From: Cephalotus follicularis
Taxonomy: Eukaryota > Streptophyta > Magnoliopsida > Oxalidales > Cephalotaceae
Length of the DNA: 64,000 nt
Reading direction: 5' to 3'
Assembly (NCBI GenBank): GCA_001972305.1
Contig: BDDD01000538.1
Coordinates: forward strand, 542,704-606,703
The notes under the pieces are model-generated. The model saw only the letters and a program-made list of their open reading frames with translations, was not told the origin of the DNA and made no database searches. The position numbers and the translations under genes were made by a program. The first letter of the stretch is position 1. The number at the start of each line of letters is the position of its first letter. Shown piece by piece: positions 5,999 to 64,000 of the stretch.

Positions 5999-7862
5999 GA
6001 CCCTAGGTCAACCCTCCACTAGTCGGCGCTGGCAGTCTCCGCCATGCAACTAGTGGCTCAAGCACAAACATATAACAATTCACAGAGCAAACAGTGAATT
6101 CAAGCAGTAACAGTGCAGTAAACAATAATGATCGTTTAGATCAACAACAGGCAGGTTATTTCCAAAATGTTTCCAAAAGTGACAACATTTGAAATATTTG
6201 CATTTTCAGTAGAAAATACTTTTAAACTGTTTCAGTAGTAGAAATCGCTTTCCAAAGACGCTTGAAAATACGACATTAATATTCATACAGCAGTTTCAAT
6301 TTACGTATGAATTTCTAAGTAGCAACACATTAGAAATCATAATCCAAGTACAAGCAGTACAAAACAGGCAGTAAACAGTACATATGCAATGCATACAAAT
6401 GCTCAAATGTATTATAGCAGGAATCGGGATCGTTTCGCATCGTTTCAGGCAAACAGCAGTGCAACCAGTAGGCTGGAATCCTTACCAGTCGACTGTTTCT
6501 GGGTCGATCAGTATCAGTAGTCGACTGGTTCCTTCTACCAGTCGACTGTTCATTAGGCAGTCGGTTGTTGTTCTTCAACAGTCGCCTGTTCCAGTGCACC
6601 CATACGAGAACATTCCCAGAGTACCATTTATGGGCAGTATGTAGTATGAACAGTCGATTGCTTTCCATTGGCAGTCGACTGGTCTCATTGAGTAGTCGAC
6701 TGTCTTCCCTCGACAGTCGACTGCTCTGCGAACCAGTGGCATACAATCGATCTAACTACTCCAACGGATCACGGTAAGCAGATAAATTAAGCTCAGGGAC
6801 AGGAAATACCACTACAGGTTTTCATATCATCCATATAACAACTCATCCAACACTCATTCCATCATACAAGCCAAGCCATATAAGGTTCAACATGCATGCA
6901 CAATAATCACTTTGTTTCTCAGTAGGCAGGCATAGCAGTTGAAAACAGTAGTAACCACATTCAAAATTCAGTAGCTACAGCTCACAAGCCAGGCATTTCG
7001 AATCATGGAACATGCATTAAGTTTAAACTCAAAATGCCATTACAACTTCCCCTACCTTTGATTCAAAGTTAGGAATCTGTAAGTCCACCTCTTTGTGTTC
7101 CAATCAGTGGCTTTTCGAGCTCCCCAGAAGCTCCAATTCCAAGCCCAGCAGCTCCAAGAACAGCCCAACAGCTCCAACTCGAGCTCCAAGCCTCAACAAT
7201 GGTGAACACTCTCTTTTCTTTGTGTTTTTCTCACTACTATCCTCTTGGTTCTTTGTCTTATCAGTACCAGTACGAGGGAGGTGAGTGAAGACGTTTTATG
7301 CAGAGCTTTTCATCCGTTTCTTCCTTTACTCCTCACATGGCACTAAATGCCACACTCCCTCATTCACATGCATGCACACACTCGCAGGCCTGATTTCTCT
7401 GCCCCATGGAGTTGTGCATGATACACATGTGTCCTCTCCCTCCATCCTCTCGACTGCATGAAGCATAGATGGCCTCCTCTTCCATGTCAGTTGTAACATG
7501 TGATTTCTGTCACATGAAATAAACAGAGCATGATCCAGTCGGCTGCCTTCCCCTGGCAGTCTGCTGTTTGCCTGACAGTCTGTTGCCAAGTGTCACGATA
7601 GTTGACCAGTCGACTGGTTCATCCCACCAGTCGACTGCCCCCATATGCAGTCATCCAGTCGGCTTGTCCTCCATGCCAGTCGACTGCCCCCAGTATAATT
7701 ACCAAGTAATCACACTTCTAAGTATATGATTGATTAAAATCAACATCACCACAACTTGGGAAAACATCATCAAATTCAGAAAAATCCTTCACTTTATTAA
7801 TTCCAAAAATAAGGTACAAGTACATTGTGAAATTACATTACATGAAAATCTCGGGCGTTACA
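5167..7862 (-). repeat. Element A 3' LTR
   Basis: This 2696-bp LTR pairs with 12590-15246 along its length. It begins TGTCACGCCC and ends GGGCGTTACA. It is bounded on the left by GTAGG and on the right by the polypurine tract. The first 832 bp are also present as the redundant copy 3118-3949. It contains two clusters of AGTCGACT palindromes. Confidence 0.92.
6487..7685. repeat. AGTCGACT palindrome clusters in A 3' LTR
   Basis: Two clusters, about 6480-6725 and 7540-7685, hold nine exact AGTCGACT sites plus near matches such as AGTCGGCT, AGTCGATT and AGTCTGTT. Neighbouring sites are mostly set about 20-21 bp apart. The same layout occurs in the other LTR of A. The function is unknown. Confidence 0.8.
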
Positions 7863-7880
7863 TCCACCCCTCCTTCAAGG
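7863..7880 (-). other. Polypurine tract of element A
   Basis: Read on the minus strand this is CCTTGAAGGAGGGGTGGA, directly next to the LTR start TGTAACGCC. It is the expected primer for plus-strand DNA synthesis. Element F has the same AAGGAGGGGTGGA tract. Confidence 0.85.
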
Positions 7881-7906
7881 AATTTCATCCTCGAAATTAA
7901 AACAAT

Positions 7907-8635
7907 CTAGAACAAGTGCGGGTAGCGTTCTCGGATATCCTCCTCACGCTCCCAAGTTACTTCATCAGGTCGGTGGAACTGCCATTGAACCTTGACCATG
8001 GAGATGGTTCGGTTCCTCAAAATTTGCGTCTTCCAATAAAGAATCCGCACAGGCAATTCCTCACAGGATAGATCCTCTCGCATCGGAACAATATCATGAT
8101 CCAGGTCATGTGACGGGTCAGGGACATATCTCCTCAGCATCGATACATGGAAGACGTTGTGTACGTTTGACAGTACAGGAGGTAAGGCAAGCTTGTAGGC
8201 TACCTCCCCAACTCTCTCCAGAATCTCGAAAGGACCAATGTAGCGAGGAGCTAATTTTCCATTTCTTCGAAACCTTTGCACACCCTTTCATAGTGAAACC
8301 TTCAAGAACACATGATCACCCACGCTGAAGGTTAAAGGCCTTCTCTTGACACTGTCTACATAGCTCTTCTGCCGGCTTTGAGCAGCAAGTAGCTTCTCCT
8401 TGATCGACCTGATCTTCTCTGAAGTTTCCTCCACTAACTCAATCCCGAGTAAAGGTCGCTCCCCGACCTCATCCCAACACATAGGAGATCTGCACTTCCT
8501 CCCATACAGTGCCTCAAATGGTGCTATGCCGATACTGGAATGATAGCTGTTATTATAAGAGAACTCTATCAGAGGGATGTGATCCTCCCAAGTACCAGCA
8601 AAATCAATAATGCAAGTTCGTAGCATATCCTCCAA
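7907..8635 (-). pseudogene. Element A integrase C-terminus and chromodomain (broken)
   Basis: This is the end of the pol polyprotein. Frame 8635-8288 holds the end of the integrase core with the SYNNSYHSS and [10 protein letters not shown] motifs typical of gypsy integrase. It stops at a TGA near 8284 and continues in the same frame at 8281-7907 with RYIGPFEILERVG, FHVSMLRRYVPDP and a terminal chromodomain-like block containing VKVQWQF, TWERE and RYPHLF. In chromoviruses this tail binds chromatin and steers integration. The TGA stands where an arginine codon (CGA) would fit. A separate frameshift lies just upstream, near 8780. Confidence 0.87.
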
Positions 8636-8694
8636 GGTCTGGATGGTACGCTCAGACTGCCCATCGGTCTGAGGGTGGAAGGCAGTACTCAGGT

Positions 8695-12586: not shown

Positions 12587-12589
12587 CTC

Positions 12590-15246
12590 TGTCACGCCCC
12601 CGTTCTTAAGAGACAGGCATTAAAGCGGTAAAGGCAATTAACACATAAATACAGCTCATGTAAAAACCATAAAATTTAAACTTTAAACCAGGAACAGTTG
12701 CGGAAGAATAAAATATCCATAAGCTGTAAAACCCGTAACGTGTATCCCATACTACACGCTACCCAAACAACCCAACATTGTTAATTGCCCATAAACGGAG
12801 CGTGATTACAGTACATGTTTAAGATCCCTCATCAGACAAATCCGTAAGAACGGTACATCAGAATCCCCTTAACAATTTAGTTTATTACATAACAGGAGAA
12901 TAGTAAAACTGAGAACAACATAACGCTTGCTCTTCGTCCATGTCAATCCAACAGGTCCACAACATCAATCTGTAAAGTAGGGGGTTAGCCTTTGTCCTCA
13001 CCCGGCTAAGTCATAAAAGCAGTTCGGGATTAAGATTATATACATGTCATGATATGAATGCATGAATGATGCAGTGCAGTATAAATTCCAGTTTATATAT
13101 ATACGAAAATATATATATTTAACATTGCGGTAAATATCAGTGGGTACATATATAAGAAAATATACGTATGCAGAAACAGTACAGTAGTAACCCGGCCAGG
13201 GCTACATCAACAAGCACAGTAATGTCCGAGAAGGACCAACAGGCAGTACAGGATGCCCACACACGACTACAACAGGCAGGATGTCCACATAGGACCACAA
13301 CAGGCAGTATGTGTAGCGCCGCCAACTCCTGGCCCCACGCTACACTCCCACTCCGGCCCCTACATCAGGCAACCGAGCGAGGCAACAGTACAGGACAGTG
13401 AGCTACCCAGCCATACTCCTGGCCCCTAGGTCAACCCTCCACTAGTCGGCCCTGGCAGTCTCCGCCATGCAACTAGTGGCTCAAGCACAAACACATAACA
13501 ATTCACAGAGCAAACAGTGAATTCAAGCAGTAACAGTGCAGTAAACAGTAATGATCGTTTAGATCAACAATAGGCAGGTTATTTCCAAAATGTTTCCAAA
13601 AGTGACAACATTTGAAATATTTGCATTTTTAGTAGAAAATACTTTTAAACAATTTCAGTAGTGAAAATCGCTTTCCAAAGATGCTTGAAAATACGACATT
13701 AATATCCATACAGCATTTTCAATTTACGTATGAATTTCTAAGTAGCAACACATTAGAAAACAAAATCCAAGTACAAGCAGTACAAAACAGGCAGTAAACA
13801 GTACATATGCAATGCATACAAATGCTCAAATGCATCCTAGCAGGAATCGGGATCGTTTCGCATCGTTTCAGGCAAACAGCAGTCCAACCAGTCGACTGGA
13901 ATCCTTACCAGTCGACTGTTTCTGGGTCAAGCAGTATCAGTAGTCGACTGGTTCCTTCTACCAGTCGACTGACCATTAGGCTGTTGTTCTTCAACAGTCG
14001 ACTGTTCCAGTGCTCCCATACGAGAACATTCCCAGATTACCAATTCTGGGTAGCATATAGTATGAACAGTCGACTTCTTTCCATTGGCAGTTGACTGGTC
14101 TCATTAAGTAGTCGACTGTCTTCCTTCGATAGTCGGCTGCTCTGCGAACCAGTGGAATACAATCGATCTAACTACTCCAACGGATCATGGTAAGCAGATA
14201 AATTAAGCTCAGGGACAGGAAATACAACTACAGGTTGTCATATCATCCATATAACGACTCATCCAACACTCATTTCATCATACAAGCCAAGCCATATAAG
14301 GTTCAACATGCATGCACAATAATCACTTTGTTTCTCAGTAGGCAAGCATAGTAGTTTAAAACAGTAGTAACCACATTAAAAATTCAGTAGCAACAACTCA
14401 CAAACCAGGCATTTTGAATCATGGAACATGCAGTAAGTTTAAACTCAAAATGCCATTACAACTTCCCCTACCTTTGATTCCAAGTTAGGAATCTGTAAGT
14501 CCACCTCTTTGTGTTCCAATCAGTGGCTTTTCGAGCTCCCCAGACGCTCCAATTCCAAGCCCAACAGCTCCAAGCCTCAACAATGGTAAACACTCTCTTT
14601 TGTTTGTGTTTTTCTCACTACTGTCCTCTTGGTTCTTTGTCTTATCAGTACCAGTACGAGGGAGGTGAGTGAAAACGTTTTATGCAAAGCTTTTCATCCT
14701 TTTCTTCCTTCACTCCTCACATGGCACTAAATGCCACACTCCCTCATTCACATGCATGCACACACTCACAGGCCTGATTTCTCTGCCCCATGGAGTTGTG
14801 CATGATGCACAGGTGTCGTCTCCCTCCATCCTCTCGACTGCATAAAGCACAGATGGCCTCCTCTTCCATGTCAGTTGTAACATGTGATTTCTGTCACATG
14901 AAATAAACAGAGCATGATCCAGTCGGCTGCCTTCCCCTGGCAGTCGGCTGTTCGCCTGGCAGTCTGTTGCCAAGTGTCACGACAGTTGGCCAGTCGACTG
15001 GTTCATCGCACCAGTCGACTGCCCCCATATGCAGTCATCCAGTCGGCTGGTCCTCCATGCCAGTCGATTGCCCCCAGTATAATTACCAAGTAATCACATT
15101 TCTAAGTATATGATTGATTAAAATCCACATCACCATAACTTGGAAAAACATCATAAAATTCAGAAAAATCCTTCACTTTATTAATTACACAAATAAGGTA
15201 CAAGTACATTGTGAAATTACATTACATGAAAATCTTGAGCGTTACA
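12590..15246 (-). repeat. Element A 5' LTR
   Basis: This 2657-bp LTR is the partner of 5167-7862. It begins TGTCACGCCC and ends GAGCGTTACA, followed by the target copy GTAGG. It should hold the promoter reading leftward, but I could not fix a TATA box or start site. It is slightly shorter than its partner because of small indels, for instance a shorter run near 14550-14590. No host sequence is inside. Confidence 0.92.
13891..15068. repeat. Paired GTCGAC palindromes in A 5' LTR
   Basis: GTCGAC or one-base variants start at 13891/13911, 13943/13964, 14069/14090, 14111/14132, 14922/14943, 14993/15014 and 15042/15063. Every listed pair is 20 or 21 bp apart. The usual extended site is CAGTCGACTG. 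This is the clearest example of the phased-pair layout described under findings. Confidence 0.85.
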
Positions 15247-17075: not shown

Positions 17076-17076
17076 C

Positions 17077-18103: not shown

Positions 18104-20693
18104 TGTAATAACCGCAAATCCAATTAATGTATATTGACCCAATATTTAAATAAAATATACATTTTAATTGAGTTAATTGTCAAATTATAATAATTTCTGT
18201 GTTTAGTAAATGCTTGGGATGAATGGAGGTACAACTTGGTGAAAATCAAACTTAACAAACCCTAAAGCAGCTCAAACAGTCGACTGTCACAGGACAACAG
18301 TCGACTGTCTGATACGGGAGAGGACAGTCGACTGCCTGATACAGACAGTCGACTGGATCGGTACAGAACAGGTGTTTGTGCATGCCTGTGTGACTGAATC
18401 AGAAGGCATTGCATGAAGGGCAGGTGTCATGCGTGACAGTAGCTGCCAGAGCATGCAAAATGGAGTGCTTGTATGTCTTCCATCCCTCATGCAACCTGCA
18501 GATAGAAATGGGGAAGAGAGAAAGTAAATGTGAGCAAAGTGCATGTGAGAGAGAGAAGGAAATGAGAGGAAACTGAGTTATGGGAATCTGGCGAATTCAA
18601 GGTCGTTGAGCTCTATATCAGCTGTGCATGAGCTGTGAGTGAGTGTTAGAAACACTAAAGATTGAGGAGAATTGCTGAAATTGGTGAAAGCTTGCAATTG
18701 AGGAATAGGAGAGCTCAAAGAAAGAGAATTGAAGCTTTGGATTTTCTTGGTAAGTCTTCAATTCGAACTCACAGTTAATGTGATGATAATGTAACTAGGA
18801 GGATGTTAAGGTATCTCCTGTTAACATGATTAAGGTTAACAATCTCTAGAATGGAAATAGAAATGGTAATGAAAGGGAGAAAGAAATATGAATATTGAAT
18901 TAGAGAATTGTGATAAACCTACGATTCAATTAGGATTGTTATTATAGTTGTCTCTAAGTATGTGTATGCTGACTAAACATATATACACCTTCTGTAACAT
19001 GCAAGCATGGTAGTTACTAGAAGTTGAAGTGAATAATGGAGAAAAGTTATTGATAATGGAAAGAGGGACTTAATGAACTCTTGATTAACTACTGTTGAAG
19101 TAGTAATTGCAACTGGATAATTAGTTAACCTACTGATTAAGTGACTGAATCTCCAAACATGCATTGCATAGATTAATTCTGCTGGATTTGGAAGGACTGG
19201 TTGGTGGAAAAAGCTTGGAAACTCAAAGAGAAAGATCAATTCCAATTGATCTTGGGATAAGCAATTAAGGTAGGGGTAATGACATATTTTGGAAGATATG
19301 AGTATGCATGTCATGTATGTTTATTTTCTGCGTGATTTCATGCATGGATTGAATTGTATTAGGCTTTGGAATATACAAACCTGCTACTCCCTACATTTTT
19401 GGGCAGAAGCAGTTGACTGTTCTTCATGGAAGTCGACTACTCAACCCTATCCAGTCGACTGTTAAGACAAAACAGTCGACTGTTCATGAGAACAGCCGAC
19501 TGCCCTGGGCTAAAGTTCTGATATAGGTCCTGTTTGGACTTTAATTTGAATTGCTACTATCTTGCTACTGATTCTGTATATGCTACTGTTAATTAGTATA
19601 TACTAATGATTGTTATAAACCCTATTGTTCCATATTTCCAAAGATTGAACAAACTATGTGCTATATGCACAATTTATGATATCAACTATCATTTTCAAAT
19701 GAAAGATTATTGCTAAAAAGAACTACTGGTTTTCCTCCTATGAGGGGTACCTACTGTTTTGTTCCCAATTGGAAACCGCTACTGTATTGATATCGTTTTC
19801 CTCTTATGAGATGTACGATCACTGGATTGTTATATGTTTCTAAAGAAAACACTTTGATATTTCATATTATATATATATGTAATATTATTATTGAACCGAA
19901 ATGATTGAATTGATTGTCTTTGTTATTGCCGATTAGTCGAGTGATGGCAGATATTACTGGCTAACGGAGGTGGTCCTATGTGCCAGGAGTTGGCTAGAGT
20001 ACACACCCAAAACTGTCTGCATTGCATATCTTATTTGTTAAACTGCGCACTAATGTCGGTAGTAAATGTTACCTTATCTATCATCTTCAGAGTGTAGGGT
20101 GATAGATAGGTGGTGCGCAGTTGGTGCTAGGAGTTACCGACATGTGACACCCAAACCATAGTATGAATTGATTGTACCCTTGTGCGGTACTCTTGCATTG
20201 TATTGTTTATGGCCACTTGGCATGATTGCTTATATATTGGCATACTTAAATAATATTTCAAATATAAACTGTCATACATGTTGCATCCATATATTCCTTA
20301 ACATGCATTATCTTCCTACTTAGCCAAGTGACGACAACGGCTTACCCCTACAATTTCAGATTAAGCGAAGATTTCGGAGATGGCTGCTGAAGCTTGGAGA
20401 GCTCCTATTTTGGAGTTAAGGTTGCTATTTTATTAATGTTGTACTGTATTTTGAAATGAATGGATCATACCCCGTACTCTGTTGTACTTTCCTTATGTAA
20501 GGATAATTGTTGGATTATGCCTGCACGTAGTATGGGCTGCGTGCGGATGACTTGCATTTTATATTCTGGCTTACTGAATGCTTCTGCATATTGTTTATGA
20601 ATTGTTGAATGGAATGTTGGAATATTATATTTAATTTTTGATATCACCATATATGCTTGTGCCTATGTGGAAATGTTAAGGCGAGGTGTGACA
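18104..20693 (+). mobile_element. Solo LTR of the D/E family inside element B RT
   Basis: A 2590-bp LTR begins TGTAATAACCGC and ends GAGGTGTGACA. It is flanked by AATCC at 18099-18103 and 20694-20698. It has no internal region, so it is a solo LTR left by LTR-LTR recombination. It aligns along its length with D's LTR (49875-52474), including the CGATTAGTCGAGTGATGGCAG stretch near 19930. It interrupts B's RT inside the [11 protein letters not shown] motif. Seven exact AGTCGACT sites occur in two clusters (about 18275-18355 and 19430-19500). Confidence 0.92.
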
Positions 20694-25671: not shown

Positions 25672-27808
25672 TGATGGAATCGGATTAACCAATTCCTATG
25701 CCATAAATGGGTTAAGGTATGTAGGGTGTAGAACAAAACTTAAACATACAAACATGGCGGCAGAAAACACCCAACAAAGGCTAAAAACCAGTCCATTATG
25801 GCGGCATGGCCACAAGCCACAAGGATCACCACATCAACACTTTAATTGAAAAGATGTCACCATTGCATTCAATGGTGACAAACAAGCAAGGCAATAAGAG
25901 AGAGAGACAAGGAGATATACCAGTGGGTGTTGGCTCTTTTGTCTTTGCCGCTACTAGCTTGAGAAGACTCCTTCCTTATTGCCCTCCAATTCGCGCTGCT
26001 ACTGCTCCCACCAACAACAACACAAAATCAACAAAAGATGCAATCACACAAAACTCTCTCTTTATAATAATGCTCACAAAAGATGCATTGGCAAAGACAA
26101 GGGATGTCAATGTCAATCCACCCTATATAAGCTCTTGCTTGGTGTATATCAAAGATGGGAACTTATGCAATCTCCAGAGAGAACGAACTTAATTGCCCAA
26201 CAATTTTTCTACCTCTTCTTACAAAACCAGAAATCTGCATAATAATGCATTCACAAGCCCACCAATCCACTCTCCCATCAACATGGAATCATGGTCCTCA
26301 CTCCCGAGGAGTCAGTAGCCATGATTCCCACGTTTCCATAATGTGCAAAGATGGGAGAAAACTGCTGGAGATGAGAGAGAAAATGTGCCCACGAACTGAG
26401 TTCATGCACAGGTTGCACAACCCGCGCTAATCGTCGACGCTTTCACCAACAGCGTCGATGCTTAAGCATTACATGTCACTAAATGTCTACATTTTTTTTT
26501 AAAGTCATCAATGCCTTTGTGAGCCTTAAGCATCGACGCATCCCAAAAGGCGTCGACGCTTTGTCCAACAAAATGCGTCGACACTTTCCTAGAAGGCGTC
26601 AACGCTTTGACTCGTTTATGAAGCAAATAGAGTATAAGTCCAACATATATAAACCCTTCTAATATTGATTAAGTAAGATCAAACAAATGTGTTTCCACAA
26701 AATGTAAAATCCATATAACCGATATTTGACACCGAGACTTAATATGTCCAACATATAAAAGAACTAATCATTATTGGGCAGGGACCCTATAAAATCTTGG
26801 TTAAAAACGGAGGTGTTCATAAATTATAGAAGTACCCCTAGGGTTTTGTTTAGCCATTCTAAATCATCTTAGACCAATTTAAATGCTCTCAGAATAATAT
26901 CTAATATTACCCAGATGGAAAAATTAATCTAATTAATTTTCCCATAATTTATTACATACCTCTTTAACCCTTGATTTTCTAAGTCATCGGTTCACGTGTA
27001 CTATAATATCTAATAGGACCGTTGGTAAACTCTCCGGAAATCTAATTTCCAGTCCGCCTCAACCTTGGGCAAGGATTTCATAAGTCCAAAGTATAATCAG
27101 ATCATAATAGAGTCAATCACCTCCGCTGAGGTGTGACAATCCCATATTGCGCACTCACTTATATTCGTATAGATTCGATCATACCCAAAGTGCACCCGAT
27201 TGCCAGCCCTGCGCAAGGACTGGGTAAGGTGGAGATCAAAGCATAACCGTCTCCATACAATATAGAGCAGTCGCTCAGGTCTAAGGATCAGACGAGTTTG
27301 AGAACTCGCTAAGTGATCATCACTTATACACAACCGTAATAAGCAGGAGTCACTACTGACACGAGAATAGCGACTATCCAAATAGTGTCTCCTACGCTGG
27401 TCTAGTTCAGTGTACACGCTCCCAGCGCGTACCCCGTATTTGCCCTAGTGTCCAACACAGATGGTAGAGAGAGAATCCATCATCCAATTCCATGAGCATG
27501 CAACATACGCGCAAGTCTATCCGGTTCAATAATGCCCACAAAGTGAACCTATGACTTGGAACTAATTTGACATAAGGAATAAGGTAACCAATCTCACAGC
27601 CTCCATGTTAGGCATCCAACCTTATGTCAGGGCATCACAAGTGTAAGCAGGTAAATAATAAACTACTTCAATTAAGTGATAAAACACAAGTGATATAGCC
27701 ATAACAAATTAGCACGCATCATATATATAAGGAATAAAATTGTTTAATACAAGACAAGATATAATATGACAGCTTATCCAATGACTTGTCGGGTCACTAC
27801 ATCTAACA
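25672..27808 (-). mobile_element. Solo LTR, TGTTAG type, in element B 5' LTR
   Basis: A 2137-bp insertion reads TGTTAGATGTAGTG at its start and CCGATTCCATCA at its end on the minus strand. It is flanked by CTCGC (25667-25671) and CTCCC (27809-27813), a 5-bp target duplication with one change. The uninterrupted site is visible in B's other LTR near 15452. No internal coding domains or primer site were found, so a solo LTR is the best call. The TGTTAG start suggests a Copia-type element, not proven. GCGTCGACGC-type sites lie at 26433/26454, 26532/26552 and 26577/26598. Confidence 0.78.
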
Positions 27809-31663: not shown

Positions 31664-32414
31664 TGAAAGTTAAATGTATGGCAACCTTAAACAACAAATT
31701 TGTATGCGGAAAATACAAATTAAGCAATGAACATAAATAATCATCCAAGAACAATTAAATAAAGAGTTAAGGGATAGAAGGAGTGCAAACAAATTTTTAG
31801 TGGTTCGGCAAATCCGTGCCTACGTCCACTTTCTCAAGACCTCTTGAGTTTCCACTAGAATCCAAAGGCGTCGACTTCTTTTATAAAGGCGTCGATGTCT
31901 TTTCTGGGAAATCTCCAGGTGCTGAGGCTTTGAGTGTCACGTCGATCTCTTCCTTGGAGTCGATGCTTTTTCTGGGAATCTTGAAAATGGCGTCGATCTC
32001 TATTGAAAGGCGTCGATGTCTTTTACTTTGACGTCGATGTCTTTTGTTTAAGGATCGATGTCTTTGAGTGCAATTTCATATAGTAGCTTCTGTTTTGGAA
32101 AACGACTAAACGCGTCGATGTTATCCTGGAAGTGGTCGATGTCTTCTTGAATGTAGTCGACGTCTTTGGGAAGTAGTCGACTTCTTTTGGTACGGACGTC
32201 GATGCCAATACTGTGATGACGATGTCTTCCTTACAGTTAAACCTGTACAAAAGACGTCGATGCTATTTGGAAGAAGTCGACTTCTTTTTCAGTAGATTGG
32301 TTTTAGGTTTTGATATTCAACTTGTAATTTCTTGCACATCAAGTAAACAAGTTAAATGCAATTTGTAATCATTAAAACATATGATTGAGACTTATCATCA
32401 ATAAAGTCCCAACA
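31664..32414 (-). mobile_element. Copia-like solo LTR in the CACTA element
   Basis: A 751-bp insertion reads TGTTGGGACTTTATTG at its start and TTTAACTTTCA at its end on the minus strand. It is flanked by GTATA at 31659-31663 and 32415-32419. It has no interior. The TGTTGGGACTTTA start is common in plant Copia LTRs, so Copia is likely but not proven. The middle (31865-32290) is packed with GGCGTCGATGTCTT-like sites and half-sites, many 20-21 bp apart (for example 31870 and 31891). Confidence 0.85.
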
Positions 32415-46529: not shown

Positions 46530-47135
46530 TGTCACACCCGTTCCCGACAACAATCGATAACCTACCGAGGATGGATGTGACTATCACGTGACAAGCCTCA
46601 TTTCGGAAACTCCACATGATAACTGAAAACCGTTTCGAAAGCCGTTTAAAGCTATGCAATCAAAATTGAAAATCATAAAGTTAAAGTCTCCAAAATTTTG
46701 AAAATTTTTCTAAACTCTTAAATTTTTACGAAAATCGGGCATGTAGTATCCGTTTATCAGACTATGCCCCCTGTAAAGAAAAACAAAGTTTATAAAAACA
46801 CACTCCCGAAGGAGGAATCAACAGTTTATAAGGTGGGCTCAGCCCTCAGCAACCACAATTTTAAAGCAGTAAACATAGGTTGGGCTCAGCCTCAACCATT
46901 TCAACTAGCAATAAAAGTAAATCTATAGAGCTCGGCCCTTTAAAAGCAAAACTATAAAGGAAAACGTTTATATGAAAACATAAGTAAATGCATAAATTAA
47001 ATGCTAATGTAGTTATGCTATGCATGTGTTGAAATCTTGGTAGCATGCCCTGCCTCCATGGTCCATCATCTACTGAAAAGATATAACTATCATCTTGCCT
47101 CTATCTGGAAGGGGAAAGAAAAAGAAGGGGGTTAG
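46530..47135 (-). repeat. Element G 5' LTR, visible part
   Basis: Starts TGTCACACCCGTTCCCG and matches the first 590 bp of 39479-43638. It is cut at 47135 by insertion of element E. GTTAG (47131-47135) should be the left target copy. The corresponding unbroken site is near 40065 (GGGTTAGTCC). The rest lies beyond the window. Confidence 0.85.
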
Positions 47136-49446
47136 TGTCACACCCCGTTATTTCCATTACATAGACAACATATGTGGTGATATCAGGAATAAGTAAAATA
47201 AATCCAGCATTCCAAATAACAATTCAAATATATAAGCGGAAGCATTTTAAACTGGATTACAAAGTCATCCGCACGCAGCCCATACTACGTGCGTATACAA
47301 TCCATCAAATTATCGTTATACATATGGAAAGGTAAAACAACAACGGAGTGCGAACCGTTCATTACAAATATAAATCATAAGGATAACAACCTTAAACAGA
47401 TAAAAACTCTCCAAAAGCTCCAACAGCACCTCCCGAATGCCTTCACTCAATCTGAAATTGTAGGGGTTAGCTGTTGTCCACACTTGGCTAAGTAGGAAGA
47501 TAAAGCATGTAATTGAATCTATAAATGTAAATATGCATGACAATTAAAAGAAATAACATATATATATGTATATAGTATTCCAATATATACGCAATCATGC
47601 CAAGTGGCCACAGACAGTACAATGCAAGAATACCGCGCAAGGGTACAATCAATCAGTACAGTGGTTTGGGTGTCACATGTCGCTAACTCCTAGCACCAAC
47701 TGTGCACCACCTATCTATCACCCTTCACTCCGAAGATGGTAGATTACGTCAGTTACTACCGGCATTAGCGGATAGCTTAACAATCAAGTTCTGCATTGCA
47801 GACAGTTTGGGTGGATACTCTAGCCAACTCCTGGCACATAGGACCACCTCCGTAGCCAGTGATGTCTCCTATCACTCGACTAACAGCAATAGCGTAGACA
47901 ATCAATTCAATCAATTCAATAATAATATTACATATATATATATGATATGCAATATAGTAGTTGTTTTCTTTTAGAAACATATAACAATTCAATGACTGTG
48001 CATCTCACATTTGTAGGAATAGTAACATTTCAATAGTGGTTCTCTTGGAGAACAAAACAGTAGCAATACCTCTAAAGAGGAAAATAGCAATTTGTGTAAC
48101 AATAAGCTTTTCTATTAGAAATCCGTTGTTAAAAATCATTATTTATGCTTTGAGCATTAAGTTGGTAAAATCCTTGAATATATGTATATAACAGTAGTAA
48201 TTTCATTGGATAAAAGTAATGATAGTTACAATATAGCAGATCAATGATAATTGCAACAACATCAAGTCAATCAATCAATCTGAACATTTCTATATTTACT
48301 GTTGTAAAGCGTCGACAGTTTCTGTGTAAGCGTCGACGGTTGTTGACTAAGCGTTGACACTACACACATGATCAAAGCTTAAGCGTCGACATTCTAAGCC
48401 TTAACAGACGTTTTCCACACCAAAGCGTCGACGGTCTTAATTTAACCGTCGGCGCTTCTGGCGTTCTTACGAATTCCAGGAGCAAAATCAAAACAGGGGA
48501 TGCACAAAATACACCCAAACTCAGTTCAATTCAACATGCAATCAAGTATTGACCATCACTACACATTATACATGTTATATGTTCAAAAACATGTCAAAAA
48601 CCCCTACCTCAATCGCTATCCCGAAAGCAATTCAAATTGATTTCTCTCTCTATGTCCAAAGTTCTTCACTCTCCTTCAATCTTCCAAAATTGCAGAATTA
48701 ATCAACTTCCAGGTGATGATCCAAGTTCAATTCTTCTGAACTTTAAGCTCCTTCAACTTCTAGAAATCTTCCAACAATTGTCCAGGTTGTCTCTGAATCT
48801 TTCAGTGTTTTCTAACACTCTCATCCAATCTCTCACAGTTGGTATAAAAATGTCAAAAGTGTGTCCTTCATTTCGCCAGATTCCTCTAACCTTCAAAGCA
48901 CATTTCTCTCTCCCTCATGCATGCACTCTTCTTTTTGTTCTTCCTCTTTAATTTTGCAGGTTGTGCAGATGAAAGAAATACATGCGAGACACCTTAGTCT
49001 GCCTTGGCAACAGTTGGTGAAGCCTTTTTGCATGGCCAACACGTTTATGGACACATGCCTATGTTACCATTATTTAAACTCTGCCCTTCCATTCCAACTA
49101 ACACATATATTTGCGCCAGAACACGTCTAAAGCATCGCCGGTTTATAGTGGGCGTCGACGCTTATACGCTTTTAAGCGTCGATGCTGGGCGTTTAAAGGT
49201 CGACGGTTTGGCGCCTTCACTCAGCCTTCAACTGTGCGTTTTGTGCACCTGTCTGGGCTTAAAGCGTCGACGGTATGACTTTAGGCGTCGGCGGTTTAGC
49301 ACCATAAATTTATTTCTTTAGTTTTCCATATAAGAATTTTATTCCAACCTCGTTCTATTCAAAAGGTTACCAACATAACATCTCAAAAAGTACATTTTAT
49401 TCATCGTTGGGTACAAAATACATGAATTGAAATTGCGGTTATTACA
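47136..49446 (-). repeat. Element E 3' LTR
   Basis: A 2311-bp LTR begins TGTCACACCCCG and ends GCGGTTATTACA. It matches 62030-64000 closely over the shared length, with only a few percent visible differences. It has GTCGAC-core sites at 48311/48332/48353, 48427/48448, 49134/49154, 49178/49199 and 49266/49287, mostly in the form GCGTCGACGG. The PBS-proximal half matches D's LTR, but the site arms differ from D's. Confidence 0.9.
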
Positions 49447-49874: not shown

Positions 49875-52474
49875 TGTAATAATCGCAAATTCAATTCGTG
49901 TACATTGTAATATTGATTAATAAAATGTACACTCATGTGAATTAATGTCCAATTATTATAAAATTTTGATTGGTATATGCTTGAGATGAATGGATGTACA
50001 ATTGGTGAAGTAGCAAACTTAGGAAACCCTAAAACAGCCATCGACAGCCGACTGTCACAGGGGAACAGTCGACTGTCTGATGCGTGAGTGGGCAGTCGAC
50101 TGCCTGCTAAAGACAGTCGACTGGATCGGTACAGAACAAGTGTCTGTGCATGCCTGTGAGACTGAATCAAAGGGGCATTGCATGGTGGGCAGGTGTCATG
50201 CGTGACACCAGCTACCAGAGCATGCAAGAAAGAGGGCTTGCATGTCCTCTATTCCCTCTGCAAGAATTCTAGACCTGCAGCCTGCAAAATAGAAGAGAAA
50301 AGGTAAGAAAAGATGTGCATGTGAGAGAGAGAAGAAGAGGAGAGAAGCTGAGTAATGGAGCCTGGCGAATTCAAGGTTCCTAAACCTTTATCTCAACTGT
50401 CCGGGAGCTGAATGTGTGTTAGAAAAACACTGGAGATAGAGGAGAGGGGCTGGAAAATCATTGGAACTTGCATTTGAGGAATTGGAGAGCTCAAAGAGAA
50501 AGAATTGAAGCTTGGATTCTCCTGGTAAGTTTCCAATTCGAACCCACTGTTAATGTGATGATAGTGTGACTAGGAAGATGTTTAATACCTTCTGTTAAGA
50601 TGGATAAAGATTAACAACTTCTAGAATTGAAATAGAAAGTGATAAATGGTTCAAGTGTAAATGGAGATTATAACCTCTAATTGGATTATAGTTATTGTTA
50701 GTTGTCAAGATAAATGTACATTGACTCCCTTAAGTATAGTCACACCTTCTGTTCACACGTTTAAGATCAAGAAGTTGGAATTGAAGGATACTTGACATAA
50801 GGTTCATAGAGATATGGTAATAAAGGATAGTTATGAAGCTTCTTGGACTAGTGATTAACTACTGTTGGAATTATAGTTGTCCTGAGATTACTGAAACCTA
50901 CTGGTACTAATGCATGTGTCCATAAACATGCATACATAGATTGATTCAGCTGGAATTGAAAGAGTGATTGGTGAAAGAGGCTTGGAAACTCAAAGAGAAA
51001 GATCATTCCAATTGATCTTGGGATAAGCTATTGAGGTAGGGGTAATGACATGTTTATGGAAGATATTTTATGCATATCATGTATGTTTATTTTCTGTATG
51101 ATTGCATGTGTTGAATTGGTTAGAAATTGAACATTGAAATACATACTACCTGCTACTGCCTGCATTTCTGGGCAGAAGCAGTCGACTGTTCTTCATGACA
51201 GTCGACTGCTCAATGCATCCAGTCGACTATTAAGAGAAAACAGTCGACTGTTCTTGAGAACAGCCGTCTGTCCTGGGTTAAAATCCTGCTATCGGCCCTG
51301 TTTGGACCCAAATGAATTGCTACTGTCTTTGTTATTGTTCCTGTATATGCTACTGTTAATTAGTATATACTAGTGATTGTTATAAACAATATTGTCCCAT
51401 ATTTCCAAAGTTTGAACGAACTATGTGCTATATGCACAATTCATGGTTTAACTATCATTTTCAAAATGAAAACTATTGTTTTAAAGGAACTACTGATTTT
51501 TCCTCCTATGTGAGGCACCTCCTGTTTTGTTTCCAAACTTGGAAACCACTACTGTATTGATATCGTTTTCCTCATACGAGATGTACGATCACTGAAATGT
51601 TATATGTTTCTAAAGAAAACCCTTTGATATTGCATATTATTTATATATGTGGTATTATTATTGAATTGCACTGATTGAATTGATTGTCTATGTGTATTGC
51701 CGATTAGTCGAGTGATGGCAGATGTCACTGGCTAACGGAGGTGGTCCTATGTGCCAGGAGTTGGCTACAGTACACACCAAAACTGCCTGCAATGCAGAGC
51801 TTGATTCTTAACTGCCCGCTAAATGCCGGTAGTACTGTTTACCTCCTATCATCAGCGGAGTTGGGGTGATAGCTAGGTGGCTCGATGTAGGCTAGGGGTT
51901 AGCGACGTCTTGATGCCCAATACTGGTCTTCAGACAACCACTGGATTGATTGATTGTACCCTTGTGCGGTATTCTTGCATATGTATTGTCTATGGCCACT
52001 TGGCATGACTGCTTATATATTGACACACTTAAATGTTATTTTCAATATAAATTGTCATACATGTTGCATTCATATATTCCTTAGCATGCATTATCTTCCT
52101 ACTTAGCCAAGTGAGGACAACGGCTAACCCCTACAATTTCAGATTAAGCGAAGACTTTGGAGATTGCTGCTGAAGCTTGGAGAGCTTCTACTTTCTATCT
52201 TAAGGTTGTTATTTCTTTTATGATGTATTGTATTGAATGGTTCATACCCCGTTGCTGTTGTACTTCCTTATGTATAAGGATGTTTTATTTTGACTTGTAC
52301 CCGCACGTAGTATAGGATGCGTGCGAACGACTTCTGCTTTATATTCCGGCCTATGAATGCTTCCGCAAATTCGTTTATGTATTGTTGAATGGAATGCTGG
52401 AATATGATTATGCTTGTTTCTGATATCACCATATATGCTTGTCTAAAATGTAAATCGAATGGCGGGGTGTCACA
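49875..52474 (+). repeat. Element D 5' LTR
   Basis: A 2600-bp LTR begins TGTAATAATCGC and ends GGGGTGTCACA. It aligns with the solo LTR 18104-20693. AGTCGACT sites cluster at about 50065-50125 and 51180-51250 (seven exact), mostly 20-21 bp apart. The downstream part (about 51660-52474) also aligns with E's LTR on the other strand. Confidence 0.9.
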
Positions 52475-54045: not shown

Positions 54046-55651
54046 TGTAACACCCAGTATTTTCCTGAATGTAATATTCCATTTATGATGTAATTTGGAT
54101 TAATGAGAATGTTGAGTTTTAAACTCAAAGTATGCTAAAACCCTACTTATGGCCTTGGAAATGGAATGTGTGTTAGAAACTGAAACGGCACTGTATTGAC
54201 ACAATGACATCGACGTCTTTTGAAAAGACGTCGACTCCTTTAAGAGCCAGGGCACACGTGAAGAAAGGGACATGCACGTCGACATGGGGAGAAGGCATCG
54301 ACACCTTCTTGCCAAAAGGAGAAAAGACATCGACGTCTAATGAAAGACGTTGACGCCTTTGGTGCGAATGGACAGCACGTTCTTCATCGGCAGAATAACG
54401 TGCAAGGAGGATTGTTTAAAGGCTACCTAACGCCTTTTCTAGTGCATATTGACGTGTTGTGCATGTCTGTGTATTGCCAGGGATGCCCAGAACATGTCCT
54501 CACATGGAACATGCAAGGAATCATGCCATCCTAACATGCCACCTGCTAAAGAAAAGAAAAGAGAACAAAAAGAATTGCAGAAAGAGAGAAAGTGGGAGAG
54601 ATTTCGGGAGTGGCTGTTAGGTGACAAAATAAGTGTGTTAGGTGAGAGTCATATGCTTAATAACGACCCTCCCTACCTATCTCTCTCGTTTTATAACACC
54701 AGAAGAGAGAGAGATATTTGGACAGTGGGTATTCCTCCATTGTTGAGTTTCTTGGAGCCTGGAGCTTGGAATCGTTGGTGCAGCTTCGGGACGGACCTTG
54801 AGAAGCTGCTGTGACCTGTTTGGATACTAAAAGAGGTGGACTTTCTGGTTCCTAACTTGGAACAACAAGGTAGGGGAAAGTGATGGATTCATATGTGCAT
54901 TTTAAGTTCTAAGTTAATATATGGCATGGTGAATTGCATGTTATTGATTGGATTGAGATTCTGAACTTGTTGAAATGTTACTTTGATGTACTGAGTTAAT
55001 CATGTATGTATAGATACATGGATACATGTGTTGCTTGTGTAAAGGATTGATTTAGAATAGCTTGGTGTGTTGAAACCATGGAAAACACGTTCTGTAAGGT
55101 AACAGACATCGACGTCTTTTATAAAGACATCGACTCCTTTTCTGGGAAAATTGTTGGAATGTGATATTTATTGCAGACGGCCATTTTGGCCACTTGAAAT
55201 TATCTGTTTGGTTTCGGATTGATGTTATGGTTGTGTACCTGTTAATCAGTAGCATACCCTATACGTCTATGGAGTAAGATTCGTTTATATGAGAGATTAA
55301 GGGGTTGGATTTTAGCCTCTTGAATCAAGGCTTGCAACTAATACTCCCTGGTATGAAAAAGACATCGATGTCTTTGTCAAAGACATCGACGTCTTTGGTC
55401 CAGGAAAGCCTGGGAATATTTGAACATAAGATTTACACTTTAGGCTAAAAGACATCGACGCCTTAAGGAAAGACATCGACGCCTTTCCTCCTGGACAGTA
55501 GAATTTCACACGAATGAGTACCGTTAGACCCGGAACGACTCTAAAAATGAACCTAGATGCATTCTGAGCATATGATTGCATTGTTACTGTAACTTGCATT
55601 ATGGTTGCTTTCCTAAAAGTGTTAAACCATTTGAAAAGCTTGCATGATTAT
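54046..55651 (+). repeat. Element F 5' LTR, 3' end missing
   Basis: Matches 56142 to about 57770 with a few percent differences, then diverges after TTGCATGATTAT. About 480 bp of LTR end, including the primer-proximal part, are missing. It has ATCGAC/GTCGAC sites in pairs, for example 54209 and 54230 (21 bp), in the form GACATCGACGTC. Confidence 0.88.
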
Positions 55652-56141: not shown

Positions 56142-58229
56142 TGTAACGCCCTGTATTTTCCTGAATGTAATATTCCATTTATGATGTAATTTGGATTAAT
56201 GAGAATGTTGAGTTTTAAACTCAAAGTATGGTAAAACCCTACTTATGGCCTTGGAAATGGAATGTGTGTTAGAAACTGAAACGGCGCTGTCTTGTCACAA
56301 TGACATCGACGTCTTTTGAAAAGACGTCGACTCCTTTAAGAGCCAGGGCACACGTGAAGAAAGGGACATGCACGTCGACATAGGGAGAAGGCATCGAAAC
56401 CTTCTTGCCAAAAGGAGAAAAGACATCGACGTCTAATGAAAGACGTCGACGCCTTTGGTGCGAATGGACAGCACGTTCTTCATCGGCAGAATAACGTGCA
56501 AGGAGGATTGTTTAAAGGCTACCTAACGCCTTTTCTAGTGCATATTGACGTGTTGTGCATGTCTGTGTATTGCCAGGGATGCCCAGAACATGTCCTCACA
56601 TGGAACATGCAAGGAATCATGCCATCCTAACATGCCACCTGCAAAAGAAAAGAAAAGAGAACAAAAAGAATTGTAGAAAGAGAGAAAGTGGGAGAGATTT
56701 CGGAAGTGGCTGTTAGGTGACAAAATAAGTGTGTTAGGTGAGAGTCATCTGCTTAATAACGACCCTCCCTACCTATCTCTCTCGTTTTATAACACCAGAA
56801 GAGAGAGAGAGAGATTTGGACAGTGGGTATTCCTCCATTGTTGAGTTTCTTGGAGCCTGGAGCTTGGAATCATTGGTACAGCTTCGGGACGGACCTTGAG
56901 AAGCTGCTGTGACCTTTTTGGATACTAAAAGCGGTGGACTTTCTGGTTCCTAACTTGGAACAACAAGGTAGGGGAAAGTGATGGATTCATATGTGCATTT
57001 TAAGTTCTAAGTTAATGTATTGCATGGTGAATTGCATGTTATTGATTGGATTGAGATTCTAGACTTGTTGAAATGTTACTTTGATGTACTGAGTTAATCA
57101 TGTATGTATAGATACATGGATACGTGTGTTGCTTGTGTAAAGGATTGATTTAGAATAGCTTGGTGTGTTGAAACCATGGAAAACACGTTCTGTAAGGTAA
57201 AAGACATCGACGTCTTTTATAAAGACATCGACTCCTTTTCTGGGAAAATTGTTGGAATGTGATATTTATTGCAGACGGCCATTTTGGCCACTTGAAATTA
57301 TTTGTTTGGTTTCGGATTGATGTTATGGTTGTGTACCTGTTAATCAGTAGCATACCCTATACGTCTATGGAGTAAGATTCGTTTATATGAGAGATTAAGG
57401 GGTTGGATTTTAGCCTCTTGAATCAAGGCTTGCAACTAATACTCCCTGGTATGAAAAAGACATCGACGTCTCTGTCAAAGACATCGACGTCTTTGGTCGA
57501 GGAAAGCCTGGGAATATTTGGACATAAGATTTACACTTTACGCTAAAAGACATCGACGCCTTAAGGAAAGACATCGACGCCTTAAGGAAAGACATCGACG
57601 CCTTTCCTCCTGGACAGTAGAATTTCACACGAATGAGAACCGTTAGACCCGGAACGACTCTAAAAATGAACCTAGATGCATTCTGAGCATATGATTGCAT
57701 TGTTACTGTAACTTGCATTATGGTTGCTTTCCTAAAAGTGTTAAACCATTTGAAAAGCTTGCATGATTATGCATTCATTCATGATGCTCATTGCCTTATT
57801 ACTTAAACTGTATTTATGGTTTTGTTCACTTAGCCGAGTGAGGACAAAGGCTAACCCCTACTGTAACAGATTGATGGAGTGATCTTTACATGGAGCATGC
57901 ACGGAGATTTGAAGAGAAGGCTTATTTTCTCTTATTTTGGCTTATTGAGCATTTATCGTGTTATTTGGTTTTGTAACATGGGATATTTGTCATCTTGTAT
58001 TGTATTATTTCACGCTCCGTTTTGGGCGATCAACAGTTATGTTTGGATTATCGGGCATCACGTAGTATGGGATGCGTGATGTGTTCGGCTTATATTTGAT
58101 GCTTACGCGAGATGTTTTTGGATAAGAAAAGTTTTAAATTTTATGGTAATTTTACATAAGCCGGATTTTTATGTTGATTGCCGTACCACTTTATATGTTG
58201 TCTATGTTCTGTGGAAACGGGGTGTGACA
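56142..58229 (+). repeat. Element F 3' LTR
   Basis: A complete 2088-bp LTR, from TGTAACGCCC to GGGGTGTGACA, followed by CACTA. The array near 57547-57605 has three GACATCGACGCC units spaced 21 bp apart, where the 5' LTR has two. This shows gain or loss of one unit since insertion. Confidence 0.92.
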
Positions 58230-59744: not shown

Positions 59745-60708
59745 ACTGCAGTATCAGGAATTCGTAATGCCCATATCTGGTTTGAAATGTGGTCTTCTCC
59801 ACATCACCCTCTCTGATCCTCAACTGATGATAACCTGTTCTCAGGTCCAGTTTGGAGAATACGGTTGAGCCTTGCAGTTGGTCGAACAACTCCTCAATAT
59901 GTGGCAGAGGATACTTGTTCTTCACCGTTACTTGATTTAGCAGCCTGTAATCAATGCATAACCGCATCGTTCCAGCCTTCTTTTTCACAAACAGAACCGG
60001 TGCTCCCCACGGTGATACACTCGACCTGATGAAGCCTTTATCAAGGTAATCCTGCAATTGAATCTTCACCTCCTTCAGTTCAGCATGAGCCATTCGGTAC
60101 GGAGCTTTAGATATAGGAGCAGTCCCAGGCAACAAGTCAATACTGAACTCTATATCCCTCTCCAGTGGCAACGAAGTGAGTTCATCTGGAAACACATCGG
60201 GAAATTCACATACAACAGGCACTTGCTCAATACTAGACGTACCTTTCGTATGATCAATCACATACGCCAAATAGCCCTTGCATCCTTGCTTGAGATACTT
60301 TTGTGTTCGAGTATATGAAATGATCGGAGCAGCAACATTCTTCTCCCCAATAAACTTGCACTCAGTCCCATCTTGAAGGTAAAAGGTCATCATCTTATTG
60401 TAGCAATCAACACAAGCATGATGAGCATACAACCATTCCATCCCCAAGATTATATCAAAATCCCGGATAGGTAACACTATCAAGTCAGCAGATAACTGAA
60501 TCCCAGCTACCATGATCTCACAATCTTTCATTATAGTGTCAGATAGAAGACAAGTACCCGCAGGAGTACTCACCTCCAATACATAAGGTAATCTAGAAGT
60601 AATACCATGCAAATTGCGAGCAAATTTATATGCAATGAATGAATGCGTCGCACCAAGGTCAATCAATACATGAGCTAGTATGCCAGATATATAGATAGTA
60701 CCTCCCAC
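59745..60708 (-). pseudogene. Element E protease and RT N-terminal half
   Basis: Frame 60708-59677. The protease site reads DLG ([12 protein letters not shown]), where DSG or DTG is needed, so it should be inactive. Conserved protease and linker blocks follow ([32 protein letters not shown]). RT starts with [10 protein letters not shown] and [17 protein letters not shown] and reaches [14 protein letters not shown]. It is out of register with gag upstream because one G has been lost near 60755. Confidence 0.88.
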
Positions 60709-61926: not shown

Positions 61927-62012
61927 TCAGTTTCCTATATGGAATGACATAATCTCTAGGAAACAATTCACTTAATTTCCGAGAAACTTATCCCAGCTAG
62001 CATATATGGAAT

Positions 62013-62026
62013 ATGCTCTGATACCA
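62013..62026 (-). other. Primer binding site of element E (tRNA-iMet type)
   Basis: Minus strand TGGTATCAGAGCAT, three bases inside the 5' LTR. Confidence 0.92.
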
Positions 62027-62029
62027 CGT

Positions 62030-64000
62030 TGTCACACCCCGTTATTTCCATTACATAGACAACATATGTGGTGATATCAGGAATAAGTGAAATAAATCCA
62101 GCATTCCAAATAACAATTCAAATATATAAGCGGAAGCATATTAACTAGATTACAAAGTCATCCGCACATAGCCCATACTACGTCCGTATACAATCCATCA
62201 AATTATCCTTATACATAAGGAAAGGTAAAACAACAACGGAGTGCGAACCGTTCATTACAAATACAAATCATAAGGATAACAACCTTAAACAGATAAAAAC
62301 TCTCCAAAAGCTCTGACAACACCTCCCAAATGTCTTCACTTAATCAGAAATTGTATGGGTTATCCGTTGTCCTCACTTGGCTAAGTAGGAAGATAAAGCA
62401 TGTAATTGAATCTATAAATGTAAATATGCATGACAGTTAAAAGAAATAACATATATATATGTATATAGTATTCCAATATATACGCAATCATGCCAAGTGG
62501 CCATAGACAGTACAATGCAAGAATAACGCACAAGGGTACAATCAATCAGTACAGTGGTTTGGGTGTCACATGTCGCTAACTCCTAGCACCAACTGTGCAC
62601 CACCTATCTATCACCCTATACTCCGAAGATGATAGATCAGGTCAGTTACTACTGGCATTAGCGGGTAGTTTGACAATCAAGTTCTGCATTGCAGACAATT
62701 TGGGTGGATACTCTAGCCAACTCATGGCACATAGGACCACCTCCGTAGCCAGTGATGTCTCCTATCACTCGACTAACGGCAATAGCATAGACAATCAATT
62801 CAATCAATTCAACAACAATATTACATATATATATGATATGCAATATAGTAGTTGTTTTATTTTAGAAACATATAACAATTCAATGACTGTGCATCTCACA
62901 GTTGGAGGAACAGTAACATTTCAGTAGTGGTTCTCTTGGAGAACAAAACAGTAGCAATACCTCTAAAGTGGAAAATAGCAATTTGTGTAACAATAAGATT
63001 TTCTATTAGAAAGCCGTTGTTAAAAATCATTATTTATGCTTTGAGCATTAAGTTGGTAAAATCCTTGAATATATGTATATAACAATAGTAATTTCATTGG
63101 ATAACAGTAATGATAGTTACAATATAGCAGATCAATGATACTTGCAACCACAATCAAGTCAATCAATCAATCTGAACATTTATATATTTACTGATCTAAA
63201 GCGTCGACAATTTCTGTGTAAGCGTCGATGGTTGTTGACTAAGCGTTGACACTACACGCATGATCAAAGCTTAAGCGTCGACATTCTAAGCCTTAACAGG
63301 CGTTTTCCACACCAAAGCGTCGACGGTCTTAATTTAAGCGTCGGCGCTTCTGGCGTTCTTACGAATTCCAGGAGAAAAATCAAAACAGGGGATGCACAAA
63401 ATCATCCCAAACTCAGTTCAATTCAACATGCAATCAAGTATTGACCATCACTACACATTATACATGTTATACGTTCAAAAACATGTCAAAAACCCCTACC
63501 TCAATCACTATCCCGAAATCAATTCAAATTGATTTCTCTCTCTATGTCCAAAGTTCTTCACTCTCCTTCAATCTTCCAAAATTGCAGAATTAATCAACTT
63601 CCAGGTGATGATCCAAGTTCAATTCTTCTGAACTTTAAGCTCCTTCAACTTCTAGAAATCTTCCAACAATTGTCCAGGTTGTCTCTCAAAATCTCAGTGT
63701 TTTCTAACACTCTCTTTCAATCTCTCACAGTTGGTATAAGAAGGTCAAAAGTGTGTCCTTCATTTCGCCAGATTCCTCTAACCTTCAAAGCACATTTCTC
63801 TCTCCCTCATGCATGCACTCTTCTTTTTGTCCTTTCTCTTTAATTTTGCAGGCTGTGCAGGTGAAATGAATACATGCAAGACACCTCAGTCTGACTTGGC
63901 AACAGCTGGTGAAGCCTTTTTGCATGGCCAACACGTTTATGGACACATGCCTATGTTACCATCATTTAAACTCTGCCCTTCCATTCCAACTAATACATAT
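62030..64000 (-). repeat. Element E 5' LTR, cut by the window end
   Basis: Starts TGTCACACCCCG and follows 47136 onward nearly unchanged. About 340 bp of the LTR should lie beyond the window. It carries the same GCGTCGAC sites near 63200-63350. Short open frames (for example at 62595 and 63529) are the same as those in the other LTR and are not genes. Confidence 0.92.

Follow-up and report, generated by a model that had tools for sequence, protein, structure and literature searches.

The window analysed here is a 64-kb stretch of the Cephalotus follicularis genome (positions 542704-606703 of contig BDDD01000538.1, within a 1.577-Gb assembly of 9,746 contigs). It is made up of nested long terminal repeat (LTR) elements, and the LTRs of A, D, P, F, G, TG and Co carry arrays of short palindromes with a common TCGA core, mostly as GTCGAC or ATCGAC. 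The element letters are our own and may differ from those of a preliminary description of the same DNA. Three flank types were distinguished: type I, CAGTCGACTG (A, D, P); type II, AGCGTCGACGCT (F, TG); and type III, AAAGACATCGACG[TC]CTTT (G, Co). Types I and II are dyad-symmetric, and type III is near-symmetric, with a one-sided A(-3)/C(+3) mismatch. With up to three mismatches allowed, 8-14 sites were found in each of A, D, P, F, G and Co, and 7 in TG. The features are as follows, in window coordinates.

5167..7862, minus strand: 3' LTR of A (Gypsy), with type I arrays; pairs at 94% with 12590-15246; target-site duplication (TSD) gtagg
6474..6767, minus strand: cluster 2 of A, type I sites
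7595..7700, minus strand: cluster 1 of A, type I sites
7907..8287, minus strand: C-terminus of the A integrase, with SH3_Tf2-1 and a sub-threshold Chromo match
12590..15246, minus strand: 5' LTR of A (Gypsy), with arrays at 13877-14183 and 14979-15084
18104..20693, plus strand: solo LTR D (Gypsy or Gypsy-related), with type I arrays at 18265-18369 and 19418-19496; TSD aatcc
25672..27808, minus strand: solo LTR TG (TGTTAG...CATCA), of a Copia family, with a type II array at 26425-26598; flanks CTCGC/CTCCC
31664..32414, minus strand: solo LTR Co, of a Copia family, type III, with 15 TCGA sites in 31856-32297; TSD GTATA
47136..49446, minus strand: 3' LTR of F (Gypsy), with type II arrays at 48297-48448 and 49140-49287
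49875..52474, plus strand: 5' LTR of P (Gypsy), with type I arrays at 50026-50137 and 51167-51264, followed by a primer-binding-like site and gag
54046..55651, plus strand: truncated 5' LTR of G (Gypsy-related), with type III arrays at 54195-54350 and 55350-55496
56142..58229, plus strand: 3' LTR of G, with type III arrays at 56291-56466, ~57200-57240 and 57448-57615
62030..64000, minus strand: 5' LTR of F, cut by the window end, with a type II array at 63189-63340
39479-40074 and 46530-47135: LTR-like pair H (93% alike), free of GTCGAC and so a further negative family beside B
B: outer element with a Gypsy internal region, its LTRs without GTCGAC

The internal regions of A, F, P and B are Gypsy (RVP_2, RT_RNaseH, SH3_Tf2-1). 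A fragment of Gypsy pol taken from F matches Cephalotus follicularis with 86% identity across 80% of its length, above the identity of the other named plants among the matches listed, although one Tanacetum protein scores higher. A Copia gag of the genome matches proteins at up to 94%, and among the 120 of 1,109 matches listed, all those with an organism legible in a name often cut short are of this species. In A, Pfam domains RVP, RT/RNaseH, H2C2 and SH3_Tf2-1 were detected, and the Chromo match at the integrase C-terminus (E 6e-4, 20.1 bits) lies under the cut-off of 25.1 bits. G, in which no coding domain of its own was seen, is Gypsy-related by its internal 3' end, 86% like that of A. The Pfam scan of 20 window open reading frames (ORFs) returned transposon domains in 13 and nothing in 7, and known RNA families were rejected as an explanation, with no match at gathering score. 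The arrays occupy the U3 (unique 3') part of the Gypsy LTRs, as two clusters ~1 kb apart. Downstream of the clusters, a TATA-like block follows in A, D, P and F; a clear TATA was not found in G.

Spacing and phasing of the TCGA sites

All 19 coordinates quoted in the preliminary description hold the core or a form one base off: 11 are exact GTCGAC, and the others are GTCGAT (15063, 26454, 31891), GTCGGC (14132, 15042, 49287), GTTGAC (48353) and ATCGAC (54209). The spacing of mostly 20-21 bp described there is equally evident, as TCGA-TCGA distances in the window peak at 21 bp (n=32), followed by 42 bp (n=11) and 20, 51 and 53 bp (n=7 each), with 0-5 pairs at every remaining distance between 4 and 120 bp.

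Pairs at 20-22 bp were counted against 2,000 dinucleotide shuffles of each LTR: the observed number was reached in no shuffle for the two LTRs of A, D, P, the 3' LTR of G and Co, in one for the 3' LTR of F, and in two for TG, whereas the 5' LTR of B contained no such pair. When sites were instead jittered by up to 15 bp with their clustering kept (six LTRs pooled; the 5' LTR of A, P and the 5' LTR of B left out as relatives or controls), a mean of 4.3 and a maximum of 15 pairs were obtained, against 28 observed. The motif-bearing LTRs (22.2 kb, both copies per element counted) contain 54 of the 61 GTCGAC in the window and 40 pairs at 20-22 bp, the remaining DNA (34.8 kb) 7 and 2, and the LTRs of B and H (6.4 kb) none of either. 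The density thus amounts to 2.43 GTCGAC per kb in the motif-bearing LTRs and 0.20 per kb in the remaining DNA. As the LTRs of B and H are free of GTCGAC, such arrays are not general among the LTRs of the window, and a view of them as a universal LTR feature is not borne out.

The excess extends to the whole genome, where GTCGACN{15}GTCGAC, at exactly 21 bp, occurs at 105,145 places against 1,224 for a reversed-pattern control. By distance class, GTCGAC pairs (reversed control in brackets) number 1,443 (519) at 14-18 bp, 176,266 (1,828) at 19-23 bp, 5,964 (241) at 25-27 bp, 7,931 (146) at 30-32 bp, 964 (153) at 35-37 bp, 70,175 (700) at 40-42 bp and 6,357 (291) at 45-47 bp, in counts that weigh high-copy families. 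Chance was rejected as the source of the arrays on the window distances, shuffles, densities and genome-wide counts. Pattern scans of viral contigs for types I, II and III gave no match, and a related-locus search in viral contigs found none. Pairs of CAGTCGACTG at a distance of 20-22 bp turned up in nine bacterial stretches, against the 0.7 predicted from uniform base use; three of these stretches come from one Myxococcales bin, and some resemble short tandem repeats in the ~55 bases of context examined.

Phasing was analysed in a genome sample of 200 kb (20 stretches of 10 kb, from fixed positions of 20 contigs). Among all 64 palindromic hexamers, GTCGAC ranks first there by enrichment (102 against 16 expected), and it alone shows an excess at 20-22 bp by the threshold applied (17 against 1.7). 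With the 21-bp peak left out, TCGA distances of 25-130 bp show a period of 10.2 bp near phase zero with a strength of 0.25, which was matched by none of 500 jittered sets. Six control palindromic tetramers, compared by strength only, reached 0.02-0.12 at 10.2 bp; the control GCGC reached 0.34 at 9.3 bp, from 62 distances only. After reduction to a non-redundant set of 24 of the 34 sample clusters (10 redundant clusters and clusters of fewer than three sites dropped), the phasing was matched in 0 of 1000 cases over 12-130 bp and in 3 of 1000 over 25-130 bp. Pooling sample and window at 10.2 bp gave 106 in-phase pairs, of which 59 lie at odd and 47 at even turns, against 55 anti-phase pairs. With odd and even turns thus alike at a period of ~10.2 bp, we read the arrangement as helical phasing that goes beyond a mere 21-bp repeat.

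Several results weigh against this reading. Taken by itself, the window showed no phasing at 10.5 bp once the 21-bp peak was left out (p 0.66); in-phase pairs at 10.5 bp were fewer than anti-phase pairs (23 vs 32), and the best period was 9.9 bp (5 of 500). The pooled ratio at 10.5 bp is 95 in-phase to 65 anti-phase, bootstrapping over 12-130 bp leaves a wide range for the period (9.96-11.28 bp), and the non-redundant phasing is weak beyond 45 bp (56 of 1000). Sequence resembling a window LTR was present no more than 1.2 kb away from 18 of the 34 sample clusters; 2 further clusters are in a direct-repeat pair, and 14 were assigned to no LTR. In the sample, ACGT, a part of type III, has a mild excess of its own at 20-22 bp (11 vs 5.6), and genome-wide there is no depletion at 25-27 bp, where many of the listed places represent a 27-bp gap of one family. 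The proposal of the preliminary description that the sites share one face of the DNA therefore stands in the genome sample, at ~10.2 bp, and fails in the window taken by itself at 10.5 bp; with that test negative, the phasing claim draws mainly on the sample.

The spacing could also be without function, had slippage of minisatellite type spread the unit by 21-bp tandem duplications. One LTR of G has three identical 21-bp units where the other has two, and several arrays score as 21-bp tandem repeats, but the spacers of adjacent units differ in A, D and F, odd-turn spacings are as common as even ones (one sample cluster is spaced 31, 29, 32 and 29 bp), and ~10.2 bp fits the pooled distances better than 21 bp. 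Pure 21-bp tandem repetition was rejected on the odd turns and the ~10.2-bp period, and slippage, which we regard as the least probable of the alternatives, accounts for copies, as in the unit gained by G, and not for the phasing.

Flank types, U3 modules and superfamilies

The two clusters of one LTR change flank type together, while their spacers do not. Flank identity is 0.67 between the clusters of one LTR and 0.36 between families, whereas the outer spacer bases reach 0.38 within an LTR against 0.31 between families. When the clusters were paired in all 24 ways, pairing within the LTR ranked first by flanks, closely followed by the A/D swap (both type I), and seventh by outer bases. This comparison left out P, a near-copy of D, along with TG and Co, and was confined to sites inside the two cluster ranges that had a neighbour within 75 bp. 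In the sample, flank likeness within clusters was 0.58, against 0.44 (maximum 0.48) after 1,000 reassignments.

The LTRs of the Gypsy elements (A, D, P, F, G) had been described as mutually unrelated; they proved to be divergent relatives whose ends align. D and F can be aligned on either side of each cluster and not inside it: three neighbouring local alignment blocks score 78, 66 and 47, against shuffle means of 15.4, 14.1 and 17.2, and the masked clusters 10.0 and 10.0, against 11.4 and 8.7. A and G, for all the likeness of their internal 3' ends, differ in flank type. Two loci outside the window show mosaics. The first, L036, has an A-like LTR whose ends match A at 86% (A 1-127) and 84% (A 1393-2696), whose middle is 64% like G over ~1 kb and 63% like A over a shorter part, and whose arrays are both of type III; in the second, L035, an A-like half (72.5%) adjoins an array that mixes types II and III. 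Together with the D/F and A/G patterns, these mosaics indicate that U3 modules are exchanged or replaced, with breakpoints near the array edges.

That Gypsy and apparently Copia LTRs share the core and its spacing, as the preliminary description held, was substantiated for two Copia families by the domains of related copies. Two Co-type LTRs enclose a Copia gag with zinc knuckle at L018 (PF14223, 5.7e-17), and at L011 a Co-type LTR end is followed by a primer-binding-like site, TGGTATCAGAG, and a Copia gag (PF14223, 4.9e-32). At L026, two TG-type LTRs enclose gag_pre-integrs (28.9 bits, cut-off 28.4), rve (32.5 bits, just below 32.6) and then RVT_2 (6.1e-40), which is the Copia order. The solo LTRs Co and TG of the window therefore belong to Copia families. 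Type II sites were also observed directly past the 5' LTR of the Copia TG element (L026, 1656-1757), recalling the extra-LTR copies of Sirevirus repeated motifs.

Unmasked, the arrays of G and Co give strong matches, mostly the motif itself. With the palindromes masked, 152 and 448 of 500 shuffles were as good for G/Co in the two orientations, and 190 and 159 of 500 for F/TG; the masked spacers of D/F and A/G are likewise unalike. As the masked segments are no more alike than shuffles, the sharing does not reflect an obvious recent common segment, and one recently transferred LTR segment common to all families, the explanation that the preliminary description had set against its own, was rejected. 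Two observations count against this result: a slight likeness persists between A and D in the masked spacers of cluster 2 (3 of 200 shuffles), and G and Co have a 9-bp spacer, TTTTATAAA, in common. An older exchange with later spacer turnover is a possible origin of the Gypsy/Copia sharing.

Conservation of the arrays was compared between related LTRs, with changed-base counts for A and D/P rounded from identities. Between D and P, palindrome bases changed less than bases elsewhere (11/114 vs 471/2234; odds ratio 0.40, p 0.002). Three observations qualify this result. Between the two LTRs of the A insertion, palindrome bases changed faster (13/175 vs 82/2218 elsewhere; odds ratio 2.1, p 0.024), with losses in the direction predicted by CpG decay; the G pair leans weakly the same way (96.8 vs 98.3% identity); and the D/P spacers beside the palindromes are nearly as conserved as the palindromes (88.5% vs 90.4%). 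In the F pair, no faster palindrome loss was found (96.7 vs 95.6%). Since the neighbouring bases are also conserved in D/P, the comparison points to selection on the module, perhaps acting on it as a whole, more than on single sites.

Arrays of this kind could act through RNA, if 3' LTR transcripts folded neighbouring palindromes into stem-loops that feed small RNAs or shield the transcript, a model put forward for maize Sireviruses. Eight cluster stretches and two non-array stretches of D as controls were folded and compared with shuffles. Type I arrays fold beyond shuffles (z -5.8 for A, -6.2 and -4.6 for D), as does TG (-4.4). F gave -2.0 and -2.9, values that are not distinctive, as one of the two non-array D controls reached -2.4. 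Both folded type III stretches were no better than shuffles (Co -0.7, G +0.25), the type III motif has its one-sided mismatch, and hairpins could form without whole helical turns from site to site. The hairpin role suggested in the preliminary description thus agrees with the type I arrays and fails for the two type III stretches, so that RNA hairpins are not the common denominator, and we consider them an unlikely explanation of the arrays.

Three further observations concern other repeats of the window. Stretches 2519-3949 and 4565-5998 are 99.7% identical copies flanking a gap of N at 3950-4564; the duplication is apparently an unmerged assembly overlap, and makes one LTR end look doubled. 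The Co solo LTR sits within a CACTA-like element that extends from 31142 to at least 39224, with a CACTACAAGAAAA end, Transpos_assoc, Transposase_21 and DUF4218 domains, and palindromic repeats of its own, e.g. TACCCTCGCCATGGCGAGGGTA. CACTA subterminal repeats were rejected as the origin of the cluster at 31.9-32.3 kb, because it belongs to a solo LTR that has a TSD of its own within the CACTA-like element. At 2319-2517 and 24658-24856, LTR B shows a 63-bp tandem repeat that contains GAGGACACC...GTCCTC half-palindromes; CATGCATG words occur elsewhere, and this may be an array of another type.

Interpretation and comparison with known systems

We consider it probable that the U3 arrays are read by one or more sequence-specific proteins on one face of the DNA, with an effect on transcription or silencing; the putative binding, the dimeric state of the protein and the effect are inferred. 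The arrays would be cis-regulatory modules of the U3 part of the LTR, in which each site is a near-symmetric element of ~12-18 bp around TCGA, probably touched by a protein dimer. As the sites recur at whole helical turns, mostly two, neighbouring dimers would share one DNA face and could cooperate, or be contacted jointly by chromatin machinery that would set transcription from the downstream promoter. Lineages would retain the TCGA core and the phase, while the flanking half-site would shift in all copies at once, either by a swap of the whole U3 module or by adaptation to another protein of the family.

More tentatively, and with less confidence than in the binding itself, one may suppose that a single family of DNA-binding proteins, of the host or borrowed by the elements, drove an independent convergence of Gypsy and Copia elements on helix-phased TCGA arrays. 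The flank types, jumping between lineages by U3 exchange, would record the shifts in half-site preference of this family, which would be a trans-acting selector of which retrotransposons amplify. What is known of how plant LTR retrotransposons recruit transcription, and of how hosts recognise them, comes mostly from single families. If two superfamilies do share one geometry-constrained code, at >100,000 places of one genome, it would give a direct handle on the responsible factor, with the flank types as built-in specificity controls and the phasing as a clean test by half-turn insertion.

The arrays could instead be anti-silencing targets, bound by a demethylation factor that is either captured or encoded by a transposon, with the flank types matching co-evolving variants of the protein. 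The model for this is the VANC targets of VANDAL elements, described as short motifs of non-coding DNA, densely arrayed in a single orientation and diverging jointly between related elements (PMC5735166; PMC10398659). The type III arrays of G and Co are likewise dense, of one orientation and in non-coding DNA, and the concerted divergence and module turnover seen here also resemble what is described of VANC targets (PMC5735166). VANC targets differ in belonging to another kind of element with its own binding protein, and neither palindrome nor phasing was found in the available portion of that account (PMC5735166). Several sample clusters are of mixed orientation, and no candidate factor was recognised in the Pfam scan of the 20 window ORFs, although the 7 without any match leave room for one. 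We know of no LTR element that encodes a VANC-like protein, and we hold this explanation to be improbable, about on a par with RNA hairpins.

For the arrays themselves, the literature offers partial parallels. The matches listed, in a coverage with subscription papers mostly outside it, included no account of helical phasing, none of arrays of this kind shared by Gypsy and Copia, and nothing on the sequence or on palindromes in LTRs that describes them. In the Tnt1 superfamily, U3 varies as a module while the rest of the element is alike (PMC1838419), a modular difference as seen here; a core motif or helical spacing shared across superfamilies was not found in the part of that account available. 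According to PMC5311732 and PMC10760457, which cite Bousios et al. (2016), the LTR palindromes of maize Sireviruses are hotspots of small RNAs and, like the arrays, form a palindrome-rich, variable cis-region of the LTR; the model given for them is silencing based on structure, whereas no strong RNA fold was obtained for the type III arrays examined.

The closest kind are the repeated motifs of Sireviruses, which are palindrome clusters in the upper LTR, upstream of the TATA box, with family-specific sequence and divergent flanks (Bousios et al., 2010; PMC2829016). As far as the accessible text goes, they were called Sirevirus-specific by comparison with classic Ty1/copia elements, and have a CGG-CCG signature, Tnd-1 excepted. 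The arrays described here resemble them in being palindromic and clustered in the LTR, with at least 8 copies in all but TG (7). They differ in their TCGA core, without the CGG-CCG signature, in occurring also in Gypsy elements (the internal regions of A, F and P are Gypsy), and in the helical phasing of the genome sample, which was not found in the portion of the Sirevirus account at hand (PMC2829016). Two of the motifs listed there have a central TCGA, CGGTCGACCG of Vitis and ACAATCGATTGT of Tnd-1, and the latter differs from type I, ACAGTCGACTGT, by one base per half-site.

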